Source: a virus
Length of the DNA: 50,933 nt
Strand: one strand, 5' to 3'
IMG/VR virus record: IMGVR_UViG_3300037225_000882
Location: 1-50,933 of that record
A program made the translations under genes and the position numbers. Position 1 is the first letter of the stretch; each line of letters starts with the position of its first letter. This document shows positions 36,803 to 50,933 of this stretch, piece by piece. The notes beneath the pieces were generated by a model. The model had not been told where the DNA came from, did no database searches, and saw nothing but the letters and a program-made list of their open reading frames with translations.

Positions 36803-37402
36803 ATGATTGGAATTAAAGAAGCAGCAAAATTACTTGGAATTACTCCCAAAACATTAAGAATATGGGAGAAGGAAGGTAAAGTTATCAGTCACAGGACTGA
36901 AGGGGGACATAGAAGATATAATGTTTCTGAACTTATTGGTAGTCATGGAGATAAATTATTAACAATTGCATACGCAAGAGTATCAAGCAGTGACCAAAAA
37001 GAAGATTTAAAAAGACAAGAAATGGTGTTGGAAAATTATTGTGCAAACAAAGGATTTGAATTTGAATTGATTTCTGATTTAGGTTCTGGAATGAACTACA
37101 AGAAAAAAGGACTTGTCAGATTAATAAAATTAATTTGTAGTAATCAAATTGACAGATTAGTAATCACGCATAAAGACAGATTATTGAGATTTGGAAGTGA
37201 ATTAATATTTATGCTTTGTGAAATATTTGCTGTTGAGGTTTGTATAATCAATAGAAGTGAAGATAGTACCCTTGAAGAAGACTTAGCCAATGATGTATTG
37301 GAAATTATAACTGTCTTCAGTGCAAGATTATATGGAAGTAGAAGTCATAAGAATAAACAAATAATACAACAGTTGAAACAAGTAGCCAAAGAATTAAAAT
37401 GA
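36803..37402 (+). CDS. tnpA: IS607 TnpA: MerR-type HTH plus serine recombinase
   Basis: A 199-residue protein. Residues 1-45 (IGIKEAAKLLGITPKTLRIW, then GGHRRY) are a MerR-like helix-turn-helix. Residues 55-190 are a serine resolvase domain, with 'YARVSS' giving the nucleophile S61, then 'DLGSGMNYKKKGL' and 'DRLVITHKDRLLRFG'. This small HTH-first layout is the IS607 type. It cuts and rejoins DNA at GG dinucleotides. All key residues are present. The stop overlaps the tnpB start (ATGA). Confidence 0.9.
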   Translation: MIGIKEAAKLLGITPKTLRIWEKEGKVISHRTEGGHRRYNVSELIGSHGDKLLTIAYARVSSSDQKEDLKRQEMVLENYCANKGFEFELISDLGSGMNYKKKGLVRLIKLICSNQIDRLVITHKDRLLRFGSELIFMLCEIFAVEVCIINRSEDSTLEEDLANDVLEIITVFSARLYGSRSHKNKQIIQQLKQVAKELK

Positions 37403-38574
37403 AATCAATTAAAGTAAGATTGGAACTAAATAATAAGCAAATCACACTTGCAAATAAACACGCAGGAGTGACAAGATATGCTTATAATTGGGGAAAATCT
37501 GTTTGTGATTTGGCAATACAAAATGGTGAACACCGACCATCAGCAATTGATTTGCATAAGAAATTTGTTGCAGAAGAAAAAAGCGTTAAACCTTATTTAT
37601 ATGAAGTTTCTAAATGGTCTTCTCAACAAGGTTTGAGAAATCTGGATGAAGCATATAAAAGAATATTTAAAGTTAAAGGTAGTCGTTTTCCTAAGTTCAA
37701 AAAGAAAGGACAATATGATAGTTTTTACTTGGAAGGTGATATCAAAACAAATAACAATAAAATTAAAGTGCCTAAGTTTGGTTGGTTGAGATGCTCAGAA
37801 ATATTACCAGAATGTCAGATTAAAAATGTGGTTATTAGTAAAACGGCTAATCAATGGTTCATTGCTTTTAAAATACCTTTTGAACCAGAAATAATTAATA
37901 AAACAAATGGTATTGTCGGTATTGATTTAGGTATTAAAACATTAGCAACATTATCAGATAGTAAAATATTTGAAGCAGTTAAACCATATAAAAAGAACAA
38001 GAGAAAATTAAAAATATTACAAAGAAAATTAAGTAAGAAACAGAAAGGTAGCCAAAACAGAAAAAAAGCAGTATTGAAAGTTGCAAAATTGCATTATAAA
38101 ATTAGTTGTATTCGTAAAGATACCACACATAAATTGACAACATATTTAAGTAAAAACCACACTGAATGTGTAATTGAAGACCTTTGTGTTCGTGGTATGA
38201 GTAAAAATCACAAACTTGCATCAGCCATATTGGATGGTGGATTTTCAGAGTTCAGAAGACAATTGGAATATAAATGCCAATGGTATGGTAGTATTTTGAC
38301 CATTGTTGATAGATTCTATCCGAGCAGTAAGACATGTTCAAATTGTGGTAATATTAAAAAAGAACTGAAACTATCTGAGAGAACTTATGTTTGTGAGAAT
38401 TGCGGTCTGGTAATTGACAGAGATTTAAATGCTGCAATTAATTTAAGAAATAAGTCGGCAAGTTATGCCGAATCAGCCTGTGGAGTGCCTAAACAATTAA
38501 ACTCTTTTGAGTTTAATGGTGCAATGAATCAGGAAGTAAACAGCAATGTTCAACATTGTGTAAGTTTTATATAA
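37399..38574 (+). CDS. tnpB: IS607 TnpB, RNA-guided RuvC nuclease
   Basis: A 391-residue protein, the usual TnpB length. RuvC motifs are intact: D176 in 'GIDLGIKTLATL', E260 in 'CVIEDLCVRGM' and D342 in 'DRDLNAAIN'. The zinc finger is 'CSNCG ... CENCG' (313-336). The N-terminal part is the RNA/DNA recognition module. TnpB cuts DNA using a guide RNA made from its own 3' end, which helps the element persist. It is translated with tnpA by a 4-nt overlap. No catalytic loss is visible. Confidence 0.92.
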   Translation: MKSIKVRLELNNKQITLANKHAGVTRYAYNWGKSVCDLAIQNGEHRPSAIDLHKKFVAEEKSVKPYLYEVSKWSSQQGLRNLDEAYKRIFKVKGSRFPKFKKKGQYDSFYLEGDIKTNNNKIKVPKFGWLRCSEILPECQIKNVVISKTANQWFIAFKIPFEPEIINKTNGIVGIDLGIKTLATLSDSKIFEAVKPYKKNKRKLKILQRKLSKKQKGSQNRKKAVLKVAKLHYKISCIRKDTTHKLTTYLSKNHTECVIEDLCVRGMSKNHKLASAILDGGFSEFRRQLEYKCQWYGSILTIVDRFYPSSKTCSNCGNIKKELKLSERTYVCENCGLVIDRDLNAAINLRNKSASYAESACGVPKQLNSFEFNGAMNQEVNSNVQHCVSFI

Positions 38575-44862: not shown

Positions 44863-45036
44863 ATGAAAAAATTTAAAATTGCATTTTTTGAGGGTGATAA
44901 AATCATTTATTCTAAGAAATTTGATTTAGATGCTCAAGGCATTAAATCTGCTGCTATAGAAATGAAATTATGGGAAAAGGGCAATGAATATGATAAATTT
45001 ACATACACATCAATTGTATTAGAAGATGAATCATAA
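44863..45036 (+). CDS. Hypothetical protein, 57 aa
   Basis: The frame MKKFKIAFFEGDKIIYSKKF... ends LEDES at a TAA (45034-45036). It starts 2 nt after the previous stop and overlaps the helicase start by 11 nt, so it is part of a coupled run. The alternating hydrophobic/charged pattern suits a small alpha/beta protein. It is missed by length-filtered calling. Confidence 0.6.
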   Translation: MKKFKIAFFEGDKIIYSKKFDLDAQGIKSAAIEMKLWEKGNEYDKFTYTSIVLEDES

Positions 45037-46513
45037 ACCAACTGCTGAACAAGAAAGAATTTTCTTATTTACCAAAAAACGTCAGGAAAATATTTTAGTT
45101 AAAGCACGTGCAGGAACTGGCAAAACATATACAGCAATTGAATGTGCTAAATTATTGCCACAAGATAAAAACATTATGTTCTTGGCGTTTAATAAACATA
45201 TTCAGGAAGAACTTAAAACTAAACTACCAGAACATATACGCTGCTACACAACTTATGGCATTGGTACTGGGGCAATTAAAAGAAAATATGGTGATAGCAT
45301 TCAATTCGATGAATTCAAAGCAGATAAAATTATTCAAAAGAAAGCAAAATCATGGGGGTTAGATGATGAATTTAATGATGAAGAAGAAATAAACTTTTAT
45401 CTTAATTCAATAAAAAAACTTGCTAACTTATGTCGTTTAACATTAACCACAAAACCAGAATTTATACCTTATATTGCTGACAGATATGAGATTACAAATT
45501 TGAGAAAACCACAAGACATAAAAAGAGTGCTCAAAGTGCTTGATGAAATGAGCACTGATAGAAAAACATATGATTTTACAGATATGATTTATCTACCTGC
45601 GATTGATAATGGTATTTGGTTTTTTCCACAAGATTATGTGTTAGTTGATGAATTTCAAGATTTAAATCGTTGTCAGATAAAAATTGTTGAAAAAGTTTTA
45701 AAAAAAGATAGAATAAGTAAAAAAATCACAGGCAGATTATTTGCTTTCGGGGACGAATTCCAAGGTATTTATGCCTTCAACGCAGCAGATGATAAAGTAA
45801 TACAATGGTTCGAAAAATTTCAAAATACAAAAACGTTACCCTTAACAATTTCTTTCAGATGCTCTCAAAATGTGATAAAAGAGGCACAGAAGATAGTACC
45901 AGATATCAAAGCACTCCCAGATGCCCCAGATGGTATCGTAAGAGATGGTAGCGTGCTCGCAGAAGCACAAAGTGGTGACTTTGTTCTTTGCAGGACAACA
46001 ATGCCTCTGGTGAAGCTATTCTTTGAATTTCTGACACAGAAGAAAAAGGCAATCATTAAAGGCAGTGATATTGGAGTACATTTAATTGAACTAATCGGCA
46101 AAATCAATACAATAGAAAAATTAGTTACTTTCTGGGAAAAAGAACTGGCTAAATTCAAAAAAGATTTAAAGGCAGATGGTATATTAAATCCTTATGAACA
46201 TAGTGGTTATTCTGCACTTGAAGATAAAGTTATGACGTTATTATTTTTAGCCAGACTTACTGATAGTATTGAAGGATTAAAAACCAGTATAAAAACAATA
46301 TTTACTGATGAAATTCAGGGTATTGTACTCAGTACAGTACATAAAATTAAAGGTTTAGAAGCAAAGAGAGTATTTATAATACGTCCTGATTTATTACCAA
46401 TGAAGAACGTAAAAGGTTGGCAATGGATTCAAGAACAAAATTTACATTATGTTGCGATTACGAGAAGTTGTTTAGAACTTATTTATGACAGAACATGGAC
46501 AGACGAAGAATAG
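45026..46513 (+). CDS. SF1 (UvrD/PcrA-type) DNA helicase
   Basis: A 495-residue protein. 'KPTAEQERIF' (Q motif) near residue 4, Walker A 'ARAGTGKT' (27-34), motif Ia 'NIMFLAFNKHIQEEL', Walker B 'VLVDEFQD' (205-212), motif III 'LFAFGDEFQGIYAFNAA', motif IV 'LPLTISFRCS', motif V 'GIVLSTVHKIKGLEAKRVFI' and motif VI 'HYVAITRS' are all in order. It would unwind DNA in replication or recombination, as T4 Dda/UvrD-like helicases do. It lies in the accessory plus-strand run. Confidence 0.9.
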   Translation: MNHKPTAEQERIFLFTKKRQENILVKARAGTGKTYTAIECAKLLPQDKNIMFLAFNKHIQEELKTKLPEHIRCYTTYGIGTGAIKRKYGDSIQFDEFKADKIIQKKAKSWGLDDEFNDEEEINFYLNSIKKLANLCRLTLTTKPEFIPYIADRYEITNLRKPQDIKRVLKVLDEMSTDRKTYDFTDMIYLPAIDNGIWFFPQDYVLVDEFQDLNRCQIKIVEKVLKKDRISKKITGRLFAFGDEFQGIYAFNAADDKVIQWFEKFQNTKTLPLTISFRCSQNVIKEAQKIVPDIKALPDAPDGIVRDGSVLAEAQSGDFVLCRTTMPLVKLFFEFLTQKKKAIIKGSDIGVHLIELIGKINTIEKLVTFWEKELAKFKKDLKADGILNPYEHSGYSALEDKVMTLLFLARLTDSIEGLKTSIKTIFTDEIQGIVLSTVHKIKGLEAKRVFIIRPDLLPMKNVKGWQWIQEQNLHYVAITRSCLELIYDRTWTDEE

Positions 46514-46586: not shown

Positions 46587-46826
46587 ATGGCTAAAGAAAA
46601 AACAATCGAACAACTTGAAAAAGAGTTAGAAGACTTAAAAACATCCCATAGAAGTCAGTGGGACACTTACGGTAGCGAACTTTGTGCTGGTGATATGATC
46701 AGACAAGAAGAAGAACTTGAAAAAAAGATAGCAAATCTAAAAGCTACAAATATTGGTTTAAAACAACTTCGTGAAATAAAAGAAGAAACTAAAAAGCGTT
46801 GGGAAAAATTAGGACTATTAAAATGA
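46587..46826 (+). CDS. Small coiled-coil protein ending in a copy of the capsid N-terminus, 79 aa
   Basis: Residues 5-55 are a Glu/Lys coiled coil. Residues 54-79, 'ATNIGLKQLREIKEETKKRW' then EKLGLLK, closely match the first part of the major capsid protein ('GNIGLKQLREQREITTNRW' then EKIGLLE, residues 11-35). DNA identity over this stretch is also high, so it is a recent copy rather than convergence. It may interact with the head core or capsid propeptide-binding site. Its stop overlaps the next start (ATGA). Confidence 0.65.
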   Translation: MAKEKTIEQLEKELEDLKTSHRSQWDTYGSELCAGDMIRQEEELEKKIANLKATNIGLKQLREIKEETKKRWEKLGLLK

Positions 46827-47173
46827 AAGTAATTATAGCTGGCAGTAGAGATTTTGATGATTACGAATTGCTTCGTAAATATTGCGATTTTTATTTACAA
46901 AATCAAACAGAAATTGAAATCGTTAGCGGGACAGCAAAAGGTGCTGACCAGTTAGGTGAAAGATATGCAAAAGAAAAAGGATATCCAGTAAAACAATTTC
47001 CTGCTGACTGGAGTAAAGGAAAATCAGCAGGTTATATCAGAAATGAAGAAATGGCAAAATATGGTGATGCATTAATTGCTTTTTGGAACGGAATGAGTAA
47101 AGGGACCGAACATATGATTAATTTGGCAAAACAATATAATTTAAAAATAAGAATTTGTAATTATACAATTTAA
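46824..47173 (+). CDS. SLOG/DprA-like (YspA, DUF2493-type) protein, 116 aa
   Basis: The start is at ATG 46824, overlapping the previous stop. A longer TTG frame from 46799 lies inside that gene and is unlikely. 'MKVIIAGSRDFDDYELL', 'IVSGTAKGADQLGERYAKEKGYPVKQFPADW', 'AGYIRNEEMAKYGDALIAFWNGMSKGTEHMI' is the full SLOG pattern of phage and bacterial DUF2493 proteins (Rossmann-like, nucleotide or nucleoside ligand binding). Its function in phages is not settled. It may sense nucleotides made during infection. Confidence 0.85.
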
Positions 47174-47178
47174 TAATT

Positions 47179-47490
47179 ATGGAATGGGTAATACATATTG
47201 AGGGAAAAAATGATCGAAGAATCATGATTTGTTTTGAACCATTGAAAGAATCGATACGATTTATTGGTCAATTCAAACCACTTGCAAGAGACACTATAAT
47301 TAAAGACCTTAAAGCTGGTTTTACTTGGTCTGATATTTCTGAAGAGATGCATTCAATGGATATGGATTTGGATACTCTTAAAGAATATATATCAAAAGTA
47401 TATGACAAAATGGAAGAAAGATTGAAAGTTCAGGATGATCTTTCAAAAACCTTTACTGTTTTTAAGAAAATTGAAATAAAAGAAGATTAA
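47179..47490 (+). CDS. Hypothetical protein, 103 aa
   Basis: A beta-alpha start (MEWVIHIEGKNDRRIMICFEPL) and a long C-terminal helix (residues 68-90). Its stop overlaps that of the convergent 47487 gene. No family recognised. Confidence 0.6.
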   Translation: MEWVIHIEGKNDRRIMICFEPLKESIRFIGQFKPLARDTIIKDLKAGFTWSDISEEMHSMDMDLDTLKEYISKVYDKMEERLKVQDDLSKTFTVFKKIEIKED

Positions 47491-48426: not shown

Positions 48427-50106
48427 TTACTGTAAGTCACCAATTCCGAAAGTCTGAAGACCATCGCAGAAGATTCTACCATAGTATCTGTTCAATACCA
48501 TTTTCTTTGCATATCTTGTCATGATACCACGAATCGGTGTGAAATCAAAAGGATTATACATGACAGGCGTAAGTTGCATTGGTACGTAAGGAGCGTAAAT
48601 ATAGCCGGTCTCTAAGATACTTGTTCCTTTATGTCCAACTAACACTGTGTTAGCAGGAGCATATGGGTCACGATATACCTGATATCTGCCACTAAGAGTA
48701 CCGATTTTTTCAATACCCATATTGTATTTATCCTGCTCTGGAGCAGCATTAGATACATGGAAGTATTCAAGGTCATCGAATACTGCACTCACTTCAGGAG
48801 ATACTACAACCCAAGAAGCACCACCACGAAGGGTTGCTTTATGAATCTGTGCTGAAATCTGGTTGATCTTTGTGATCAATGTCTGATTCCAGTCTTTCTG
48901 TACACCATAATAAGTGTTAGTTCCTTTACGAAGTCCGTTGTAGTCCCAACGAGCTGTCCAAGCTGCACCACGTCTTAAATCACGAAGGATTTCACGGTCA
49001 ATTTCAGCAGCCATTTGTTCTGACAATAAAGCTGTTAATTCAGCTTCTGCGTCAATGTTATGGAATGCACTAACGTCCTGTGCCAATTCAGGTGTCCACA
49101 TAGCACGCATTTTACGTGTTTCTACAGATACTGTTACTTGGTCAAGAACGAAGGTTACTTCAGCCATTCTTGAATCTTCTTCAAGATCGCTGTATACTCT
49201 GTAAGTAAAGTAGAATGTTATACCAGTTGCAACTGTAGTTGCACTAAGTGGTAGATAACCACCAGTTCCAGCGTATTGTATGTCAGCTAAAAGTACAATT
49301 GTACCTGTTTTGCCAACAATTGCTTGACCGTATTTTTGAACCTTTACGTTGAAAGGAATTGCTGTACCTGCAGAAATACTACCATCTGTAGCATAAGGAG
49401 AAGGAGCAACAAAATTAGTTTTTGAAGTGATTCTCAAACCAGCAAGGAATGATTCGGTATCCATTGGCACGCCAGCAGGACCGATCAATTTACCTTCACT
49501 TGTAGTAGTGAAACCACTAAGTGTGAGTGTAACGAATTTATCAGTACCAACTACCCAAGTAGAAGCAGCAGTTTTACCGGTTATAATTGTCATTTCACCT
49601 TTTGAACGATCAAACAATGATGTACCTTCTTCATTATATTTAGTTGCATAGAATGCATCGTACAATGAACGACTTTCGAACTGTGTTTTTGCACTAAGTG
49701 CTTTTTCAGCAGAGTTTCCATATGCACCATCAGGTGATGTTTGATTGAAATTAGGAGCATTATCTACTCTTACGCTTGCTTTCGGATTGATGTAGTACAA
49801 TTTACCAATCGGTAAGTTAAGTGCCTGTACAGACACGATGTCATTTGCTAACAATTTAGCAAATACTCTACGAATTACGGGGAATGCAACGGTTTCGAAT
49901 TGTCCACTTGAAGACGAATCTGACGATTCATTGATCATGTGTGATAACTGGTTTTCGAAAAGCTGTGCGCAATTCTCTTTCACGTTACCTTCAAGACCTT
50001 CAAGAAGACCGATTTTTTCCCAACGATTTGTTGTTATTTCTCTTTGTTCACGGAGTTGTTTTAAACCAATGTTACCAACTTCCGCACTTTCCATTAAAAA
50101 TCCCAT
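48427..50106 (-). CDS. Major capsid protein (gp23-like)
   Basis: A 559-residue protein (T4 gp23 521). 'GQFETVAFPVIRRVFAKLLANDIVSVQALNLPIGKLYYINPK' (abbreviated here by start and end) is the conserved gp23 N-arm/HK97 core entry. 'WTPELAQDVSAFHNIDAEAELTALLSEQMAAEIDREIL' is the spine helix, and 'LTPVMYNPFDFTPIRGIMTRYAKKMVLN' the C-terminal P-domain region. The first 40 residues resemble the gp23 propeptide (RWEKIGLLEGLEG), removed by the prohead protease in T4. A copy of this propeptide segment ends the 46587 protein. The core protein gene lies upstream. Confidence 0.92.
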   Translation of the reverse strand: MGFLMESAEVGNIGLKQLREQREITTNRWEKIGLLEGLEGNVKENCAQLFENQLSHMINESSDSSSSGQFETVAFPVIRRVFAKLLANDIVSVQALNLPIGKLYYINPKASVRVDNAPNFNQTSPDGAYGNSAEKALSAKTQFESRSLYDAFYATKYNEEGTSLFDRSKGEMTIITGKTAASTWVVGTDKFVTLTLSGFTTTSEGKLIGPAGVPMDTESFLAGLRITSKTNFVAPSPYATDGSISAGTAIPFNVKVQKYGQAIVGKTGTIVLLADIQYAGTGGYLPLSATTVATGITFYFTYRVYSDLEEDSRMAEVTFVLDQVTVSVETRKMRAMWTPELAQDVSAFHNIDAEAELTALLSEQMAAEIDREILRDLRRGAAWTARWDYNGLRKGTNTYYGVQKDWNQTLITKINQISAQIHKATLRGGASWVVVSPEVSAVFDDLEYFHVSNAAPEQDKYNMGIEKIGTLSGRYQVYRDPYAPANTVLVGHKGTSILETGYIYAPYVPMQLTPVMYNPFDFTPIRGIMTRYAKKMVLNRYYGRIFCDGLQTFGIGDLQ

Positions 50107-50124: not shown

Positions 50125-50933
50125 TTATGATATTATTTTTTTGCCTCTGTGTTCTATGGTTTCGATAATTTTCCTCATTCTCTGAATATGTTTATCGTCT
50201 GCATAAGCTGTTTTTTCGATTACTTCATCAAGTTTTTGTTTTGAAGACGGCTGTATAGAAGCTGATACTTTAGTCTCAATACTTTCAGTAAGTGTTTTCT
50301 TTCCACCTTTCATTTCTGTAAGGAAATTCTTATACACTTTCTGTGATGAAATGATATTATCAACTTTTTTAAATTCGTTGATAATTTTAACTTTATCCTC
50401 TTGTGTTAATGCCAATTCTTCGTTTACCAATAAATTATTTACATGAGATAAATTGGTATTGAAAACTGCCATTTCTTTTAACTGTCCACGATATTTGTCC
50501 AGTGCGGATTTGTATTTTTCTACTAAAACCGTAGCGGTTTCTTTATATTTCTTAGTTTCGTTTATTTTTTTGGTCAACTTTTTGTTTTCCTCAATTAAAC
50601 CACTAATCTTTTTCTCTGATTCTGTTCTAAGACCACTACGCATTTTTTCAGCAGCAGCCGTAGATTTATATTCTTTGCCCGGTATTGATGTTGAAGGAAC
50701 TTTTTTCATATTTCCTAAAGTCTGTGTTAAACTTTCTTCAACAGGTGCTTCATTTGCACCACCCAATACTGCATCAATGTCGGCTTCTGATATTTCCATA
50801 TTTCCGCCTAATTCATCAATAAGTTTTGAATCATATTGACCCTGATGCATTTTATCTAATGGGAAATTACCAGCATGCATTTCATCGACTGATTTTTCAT
50901 CAATCATTGCTGTGGTCGGTCCGCCAGCATTTA
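50125..50933 (-). CDS. Putative head core/scaffold protein (gp22-like), 5' end missing
   Basis: The frame is open to the right edge. An internal ATG at 50907 is not taken as the start, because eight in-frame codons precede it without a stop. The protein is acidic and Gly-containing at the N side (DEMHAGNFPLDKMHQGQYDSKL). It then has a long Lys/Glu coiled coil (about 95-165 from the internal Met) and a helical C-terminus ending in HRGKKIIS. Composition, and location 19 nt before the capsid gene, fit the gp22 scaffold. No direct motif confirms this. Confidence 0.6.
   Translation of the reverse strand, partial: NAGGPTTAMIDEKSVDEMHAGNFPLDKMHQGQYDSKLIDELGGNMEISEADIDAVLGGANEAPVEESLTQTLGNMKKVPSTSIPGKEYKSTAAAEKMRSGLRTESEKKISGLIEENKKLTKKINETKKYKETATVLVEKYKSALDKYRGQLKEMAVFNTNLSHVNNLLVNEELALTQEDKVKIINEFKKVDNIISSQKVYKNFLTEMKGGKKTLTESIETKVSASIQPSSKQKLDEVIEKTAYADDKHIQRMRKIIETIEHRGKKIIS

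Follow-up and report, generated by a model that had tools for sequence, protein, structure and literature searches.

In bacteriophage T4, a 65-residue region at the N-terminus of the major capsid protein gp23 is removed by the prohead protease gp21, and the N-terminal regions are located inside the prohead, facing the core (PMC9958956). Diverse internal proteins of T4 have only a capsid-targeting sequence in common (PMC3012670), an N-terminal tag of about 10 residues that is cleaved off. The Gol region of gp23, situated near the N-terminal segment, binds EF-Tu and is connected with the activation of Lit (PMC3014915). CpmA and CpmB of SaPIs, like other proteins that redirect capsids, are described in passages of PMC5644958 as small accessory proteins working on assembly via scaffold-like interactions.

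The window, that is the whole 50,933-nt stretch of viral DNA analysed here, encodes a 79-residue protein with a tail that resembles the N-terminus of the phage's own major capsid protein (MCP). The tail and its relatives have a helical stretch and the W..(G)LL[DE]G motif in common with the N-termini of Gp23-type capsid proteins, the family (PF07068) of T4 gp23. Unlike in capsid proteins of the Gp23 type, the segment occurs here in small proteins that have no capsid fold, it may be N-terminal, C-terminal or in the middle, and the ENQ motif is absent. The T4 capsid-targeting sequence of IPII and IPIII and the head propeptides of SPN3US and phiKZ are likewise short shared segments on diverse, variable small proteins (PMC3012670, PMC9958956). 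However, the segment described here is similar to the N-terminus of the capsid protein itself and often lies at the C-terminus, as in the 79-residue protein, or within the chain. CpmA and CpmB differ in being satellite-encoded and in having other sequences, whereas the small proteins considered here are phage-encoded and similar to a capsid N-terminus. With regard to Gol, a helical family among these proteins copies a capsid region that aligns with the T4 VRRAIPNLIAFDI stretch, a part which the 79-residue protein lacks.

The capsid-like tail of the 79-residue protein

The features of the locus are as follows.

45026–46513, plus strand: UvrD-type helicase, the fixed left border of a variable site (Pfam UvrD-helicase, E 1.8e-17; synteny)
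46587–46826, plus strand: 79-residue small protein, with a coiled-coil YGSELCAGDM domain (residues 1–52) and an MCP-N-like tail (residues 55–79)
46587–46745, plus strand: YGSELCAGDM domain, occurring in 12 of 80 related records and joined to differing C-terminal partners
46749–46823, plus strand: MCP-N-like tail (72% identity to MCP residues 12–36; E 1.2e-6 with the profile of MCP N-termini)
46823–47173, plus strand: YspA-like SLOG protein, the right neighbour, translationally overlapping the 79-residue gene (Pfam YAcAr, E 3.7e-19; synteny)
47179–47490, plus strand: 103-residue protein, the right border of the variable site (synteny across relatives)
48427–50106, minus strand: MCP, Gp23 family (Pfam Gp23, E 3e-74)
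49999–50073, minus strand: MCP residues 12–36, the propeptide-like N-terminal stretch to which the tail corresponds
50125–50907, minus strand: coiled-coil ORF resembling a scaffold protein, immediately upstream of the MCP gene and placed as T4 gp22 is relative to gp23

Residues 55–79 of the small protein (NIGLKQLREIKEETKKRWEKLGLLK) align without gaps with MCP residues 12–36 (NIGLKQLREQREITTNRWEKIGLLE), and 18 of the 25 positions are identical (72%). The preliminary description had noticed this resemblance, which is borne out, although the match begins at residue 55 and not at residue 54; the position of the copy on the strand opposite the MCP gene, about 3.2 kb away, was also correct. The match has an E value of 4e-8 in a tblastn search of the window only and of 7.1e-7 in the record search. 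In 7475 six-frame frames, a profile built solely from 52 MCP N-termini recovered the 79-residue ORF at E 1.2e-6, whereas the reversed profile yielded no E value lower than 0.58. The resemblance is therefore not a chance one. The stop codon of the 79-residue gene overlaps the start codon of the next gene (ATGA), and the frame is intact.

An AlphaFold2 (AF2) model of the protein (mean pLDDT 80) contains a helix at residues 7–28, a turn and a helix at residues 32–74; the predicted fold is a helical hairpin in which the tail lengthens the second helix. The motif W..(G)LLEG...ENQ is found again at the N-terminus of the capsid proteins of T4, RM378, immuto and Mel-JY01. The full W..GLLEGL...ENQ motif is absent from the 79-residue protein. 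Its tail ends at RWEKLGLLK and comprises the first half of the module only (the helix plus RWEKLGLL), stopping before the EGL...F half. Because only this first half is present, the tail may amount to a reduced, or a weaker, form of the module. It is the shortest MCP-N-like segment seen, and since it is without the second half, the activity of this particular copy is the least certain.

Pfam Gp23 had no match in the 79-residue protein; the HK97-fold Gp23 domain is absent there and present in the MCP of the window. The curated PADLOC models matched neither this protein nor a 118-residue form from relatives, and searches of Pfam, PHROGs, NCBIfam and PADLOC gave no match accounting for the small MCP-N-like proteins. 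Among GenBank phages, no relative of the 79-residue protein or of its coiled-coil domain was found. The Bacteroidota promoter pattern showed no excess over shuffled sequences and no site near the 79-residue gene.

The segment of the MCP that the tail matches is 98% conserved in 64 relatives. By analogy with T4, the N-terminal segment of the MCP is probably a cleaved propeptide that is trimmed during head maturation.

MCP-N-like segments in related phages

The interval between the helicase gene and the 103-residue gene, next to the MCP gene, differs in content among relatives. At the same site, G001 (L003) encodes a 157-residue protein that consists of the same coiled-coil domain, an MCP-N-like segment and a further domain. 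An identical 118-residue protein in G056, G021 and G019 combines the segment with the further domain of G001 and is without the coiled coil. L173 encodes a free peptide of 54 residues with little beyond the MCP-N-like segment, its start lying within the last part of the helicase gene, and in G043 a fusion of the coiled coil with the segment is found downstream of the same helicase, the SLOG gene being absent. Absence from all relatives, which the preliminary description, together with a lack of interaction with head proteins, would have taken as the mark of a neutral recombination product, is thus not what was found, since these genomes have a segment of this kind at the site; it also occurs elsewhere in relatives. 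The dN/dS of the segment is 0.15–0.40, with a bootstrap P(dN>=dS) of at most 0.004 (38–42 codons), and the segment in the relatives' small genes is under purifying selection.

The profile of 52 MCP N-termini detected small ORFs of relatives at E values from 2.5e-10 to 1.4e-4, and single-sequence scans of whole records had the same outcome. Four small-protein families were found partly by profiles that included their own members, and this profile of MCP N-termini is the non-circular test. All the sequences come from metagenomic contigs, a good number of which are fragments, and several contigs sharing identical small proteins were counted once. Outside the site next to the MCP gene, in G041 and G023, the segment interrupts a CPxC-type protein as a stretch of about 50 inserted residues, L144 having the uninterrupted form of this protein, and in G077 it is the C-terminal end of a different protein of 108 residues. 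The core of the module reads [RK]W..(G)LL[DE]GL....N.A..F; the small proteins of relatives keep GLxGN..A..F, whereas the ENQ motif of the MCP is absent. Since several mutually unrelated small proteins of relatives show this resemblance too, the sequences indicate that the segment is a building block that recurs rather than the product of a single accident of copying.

A helical family of about 115–150 residues matches MCP N-terminal positions of about 20–89, including the ET..FPVIRR helix, and is carried by G013, G015, G021, G048, G055, G056, G083–G087, G001 and G004. Members were observed in L139, L144, L147 and L156, L144 having two adjoining paralogues beside dUTPase and thymidylate synthase. 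The family is predicted to form a compact six-helix protein (pLDDT 89.7). A fold search with it gave no match in the PDB and, in BFVD, one uncharacterised phage protein; in PADLOC, only CARF_HEPN was matched, at E 0.0075, which was taken as noise.

Most large relatives (e.g. G003, G038, G042 and G068) have the segment in the MCP only, and the same is true of T4, RM378, immuto and GAP32. The segment is therefore an accessory feature. A general head-targeting tag borne by many head proteins was considered and ruled out, as the MCP carries the only copy in most large relatives and, apart from a weak candidate in LR756508, in the reference phages searched.

The YGSELCAGDM motif is almost invariant in the coiled-coil domain. 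Three of the 12 carriers of this domain (the window, G001 and G043) bear an MCP-N-like tail, whereas the fusion partner of the domain is a Mom DNA-modification protein (Pfam E 2.4e-25) in L078/L164 and an ASCH domain in L006; in L008 the YGSELCAGDM domain is placed C-terminally. Judged by these arrangements, it is a shuffled domain without a family of its own, and since it is fused elsewhere to Mom or ASCH, the coiled-coil half is not head-specific.

Origin and possible roles of the segment

The preliminary description had called the tail a recent copy and had pointed to its similarity to the MCP gene at third codon positions. A recent duplication of MCP DNA onto the coiled-coil gene by recombination would suit the 81% DNA identity over 68 nt with its long run of identical bases, and the first nine codons of the tail are the closest to the MCP. 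Yet 12 of the 18 identical residues share a codon where codon usage leads one to expect 10.8 (P 0.35), and the third-position similarity, being no greater than codon bias gives, is no evidence of recency. The tail DNA is identical to its own MCP gene at 58 of 75 positions and to the same-site small genes of two relatives at 57 and 56 of 75, and dS between tail and MCP is about 0.66, with a dN of 0.19 (24 codons). The codon agreement, the equal similarity of the syntenic small genes and the dS value led us to reject a recent duplication, which is very improbable. In a tree of 72 nt (24 codons), the tail takes a place intermediate to small genes and MCPs, the branches concerned having support values no higher than 69, and because of this low support the tree fixes no direction of descent. 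The intermediate position in this weakly supported tree would also fit a 79-residue gene that has shrunk from a fusion of the L003 type, its tail having no present function; compared with L003, it is without the 18-residue linker and the last 63 or so residues, and the tail ends just past RWEKLGLL. Such a remnant seems unlikely, given that the tail has kept 18 of 25 MCP residues, that its reading frame is unbroken and still shares the ATGA overlap with the next gene, and that the dS and dN values suggest constraint, 24 codons being too few for firmness.

The other alternatives assign the segment a different function. It could direct its carrier to the host GroEL or to a phage co-chaperonin, for folding or in order to tune or occupy the chaperonin. 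The T4 gp23 N-terminus strongly targets fusions to GroEL, according to passages in PMC3012670 and PMC10052503 that cite Snyder and Tarkowski 2005, and a short N-terminal-type segment on fused carriers is the pattern observed. Nevertheless, the carriers are small (54–177 residues) and predicted to be helical and should therefore not need GroEL, which makes this role quite unlikely. Slightly more doubtful is a competition with the MCP N-terminus that slows or blocks the heads of a co-infecting phage or satellite, or delays the phage's own assembly until late: the genes are sporadic, variable and accessory, and PMC5644958 and PMC12409344 describe satellite proteins that redirect the capsid assembly of a helper, but MCP residues 12–36 are 98% identical across the group, so that a competitor would poison its own phage too, unless the timing differs. 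It is improbable, finally, that the proteins act as decoys occupying a host sensor of the N-terminal region of the capsid protein. The helical family does copy the ET..FPVIRR helix, aligned with the T4 MVRRAIPNLIAFDI region, which we take to lie within the Gol region of gp23. Capsid proteins moreover trigger Lit/EF-Tu, CapRel and Thoeris (PMC3014915, PMC9712102, PMC11312562). However, any sensor that responds to the segment would be set off by a decoy as well, the 79-residue copy has no FPVIRR part, and PADLOC matches for the small proteins were none beyond noise.

A role in head assembly is the leading reading for the 79-residue protein. More broadly, it is quite possible, if still short of probable, that in large phages of the Bacteroidota type the capsid N-terminal segment is a mobile docking module of many small accessory proteins, with head assembly or capsid-sensing host factors as its target. 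In this phage group, the segment is found both on its own and as a fusion or insertion in several unrelated small accessory proteins, and it is under selection. With a little more reserve, we propose that it would bind the same prohead partner as the MCP N-terminus, the scaffolding core being the most likely one; we infer both the binding of a partner and the scaffold as that partner. In the window, the proposed binding partner would be the scaffold-like ORF at 50125–50907, whose homologue in L130 has 559 residues. Through docking, small accessory proteins would reach the head while it is being assembled, or would tune assembly there, by analogy with the T4 internal proteins, which are recruited through their own short capsid-targeting sequence. 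Docking fits a segment that resembles the capsid N-terminus, is under selection and occurs joined to a variety of small proteins. Several findings count against it: Mom and ASCH, the partners of the coiled-coil domain that belong to known families, are not head proteins; the small MCP-N-like genes are opposite in strand to the structural genes; the small proteins are without the ENQ motif, and the copy in the 79-residue protein also lacks the EGL...F half; and the segment is confined to the MCP in most large relatives and in T4, RM378, immuto and GAP32.

If the segments do bind the partner of the MCP N-terminus, they would be natural, varied probes of the encounter between capsid protein and scaffolding core, which is the step of Gp23-type head assembly that is understood least, and the 54-residue peptide of L173 is small enough to be synthesised for direct binding or competition tests. 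If GroEL or a host sensor is bound instead, they would represent a new phage route for managing capsid folding or capsid-triggered immunity.

Host assignment and further observations

In bacterial genomes, only two contigs matched, both with capsid genes in Bacteroidota MAGs, and the closest cultured capsid protein by coverage is that of Flavobacterium phage immuto. On the basis of these contigs and of the nearest cultured capsid protein, the phage is assigned to hosts of the Bacteroidota.

The gene of the UvrD-type helicase is split in L025, L032, L040, L052, L063, L075, L085 and L087 by inserts of about 0.9–1.1 kb at a few recurring points; the inserts are possible introns or homing elements. 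Residues 106–300 of the MCP (about 49207–49791, minus strand) are 60–70% conserved in the 64 relatives, compared with mostly 94–99% elsewhere in the protein, and this region is probably an insertion domain under diversifying pressure, as far as its conservation indicates. A pair resembling IS607, named from sequence features as a MerR-type serine resolvase and TnpB, lies at 36803–38574 of the window. At this stretch, relatives have MazG, dUTPase and thymidylate synthase, often with a helical MCP-N-like gene. In the distant jumbo phage LR756508 (L196), a weak D-like small-protein candidate was seen at about 69.5 kb. Its WEPTGLLAGFE is nearer to the WSPTGLLEGLE of its own MCP than to that of the window's group, a hint that this small protein may track its own capsid protein.
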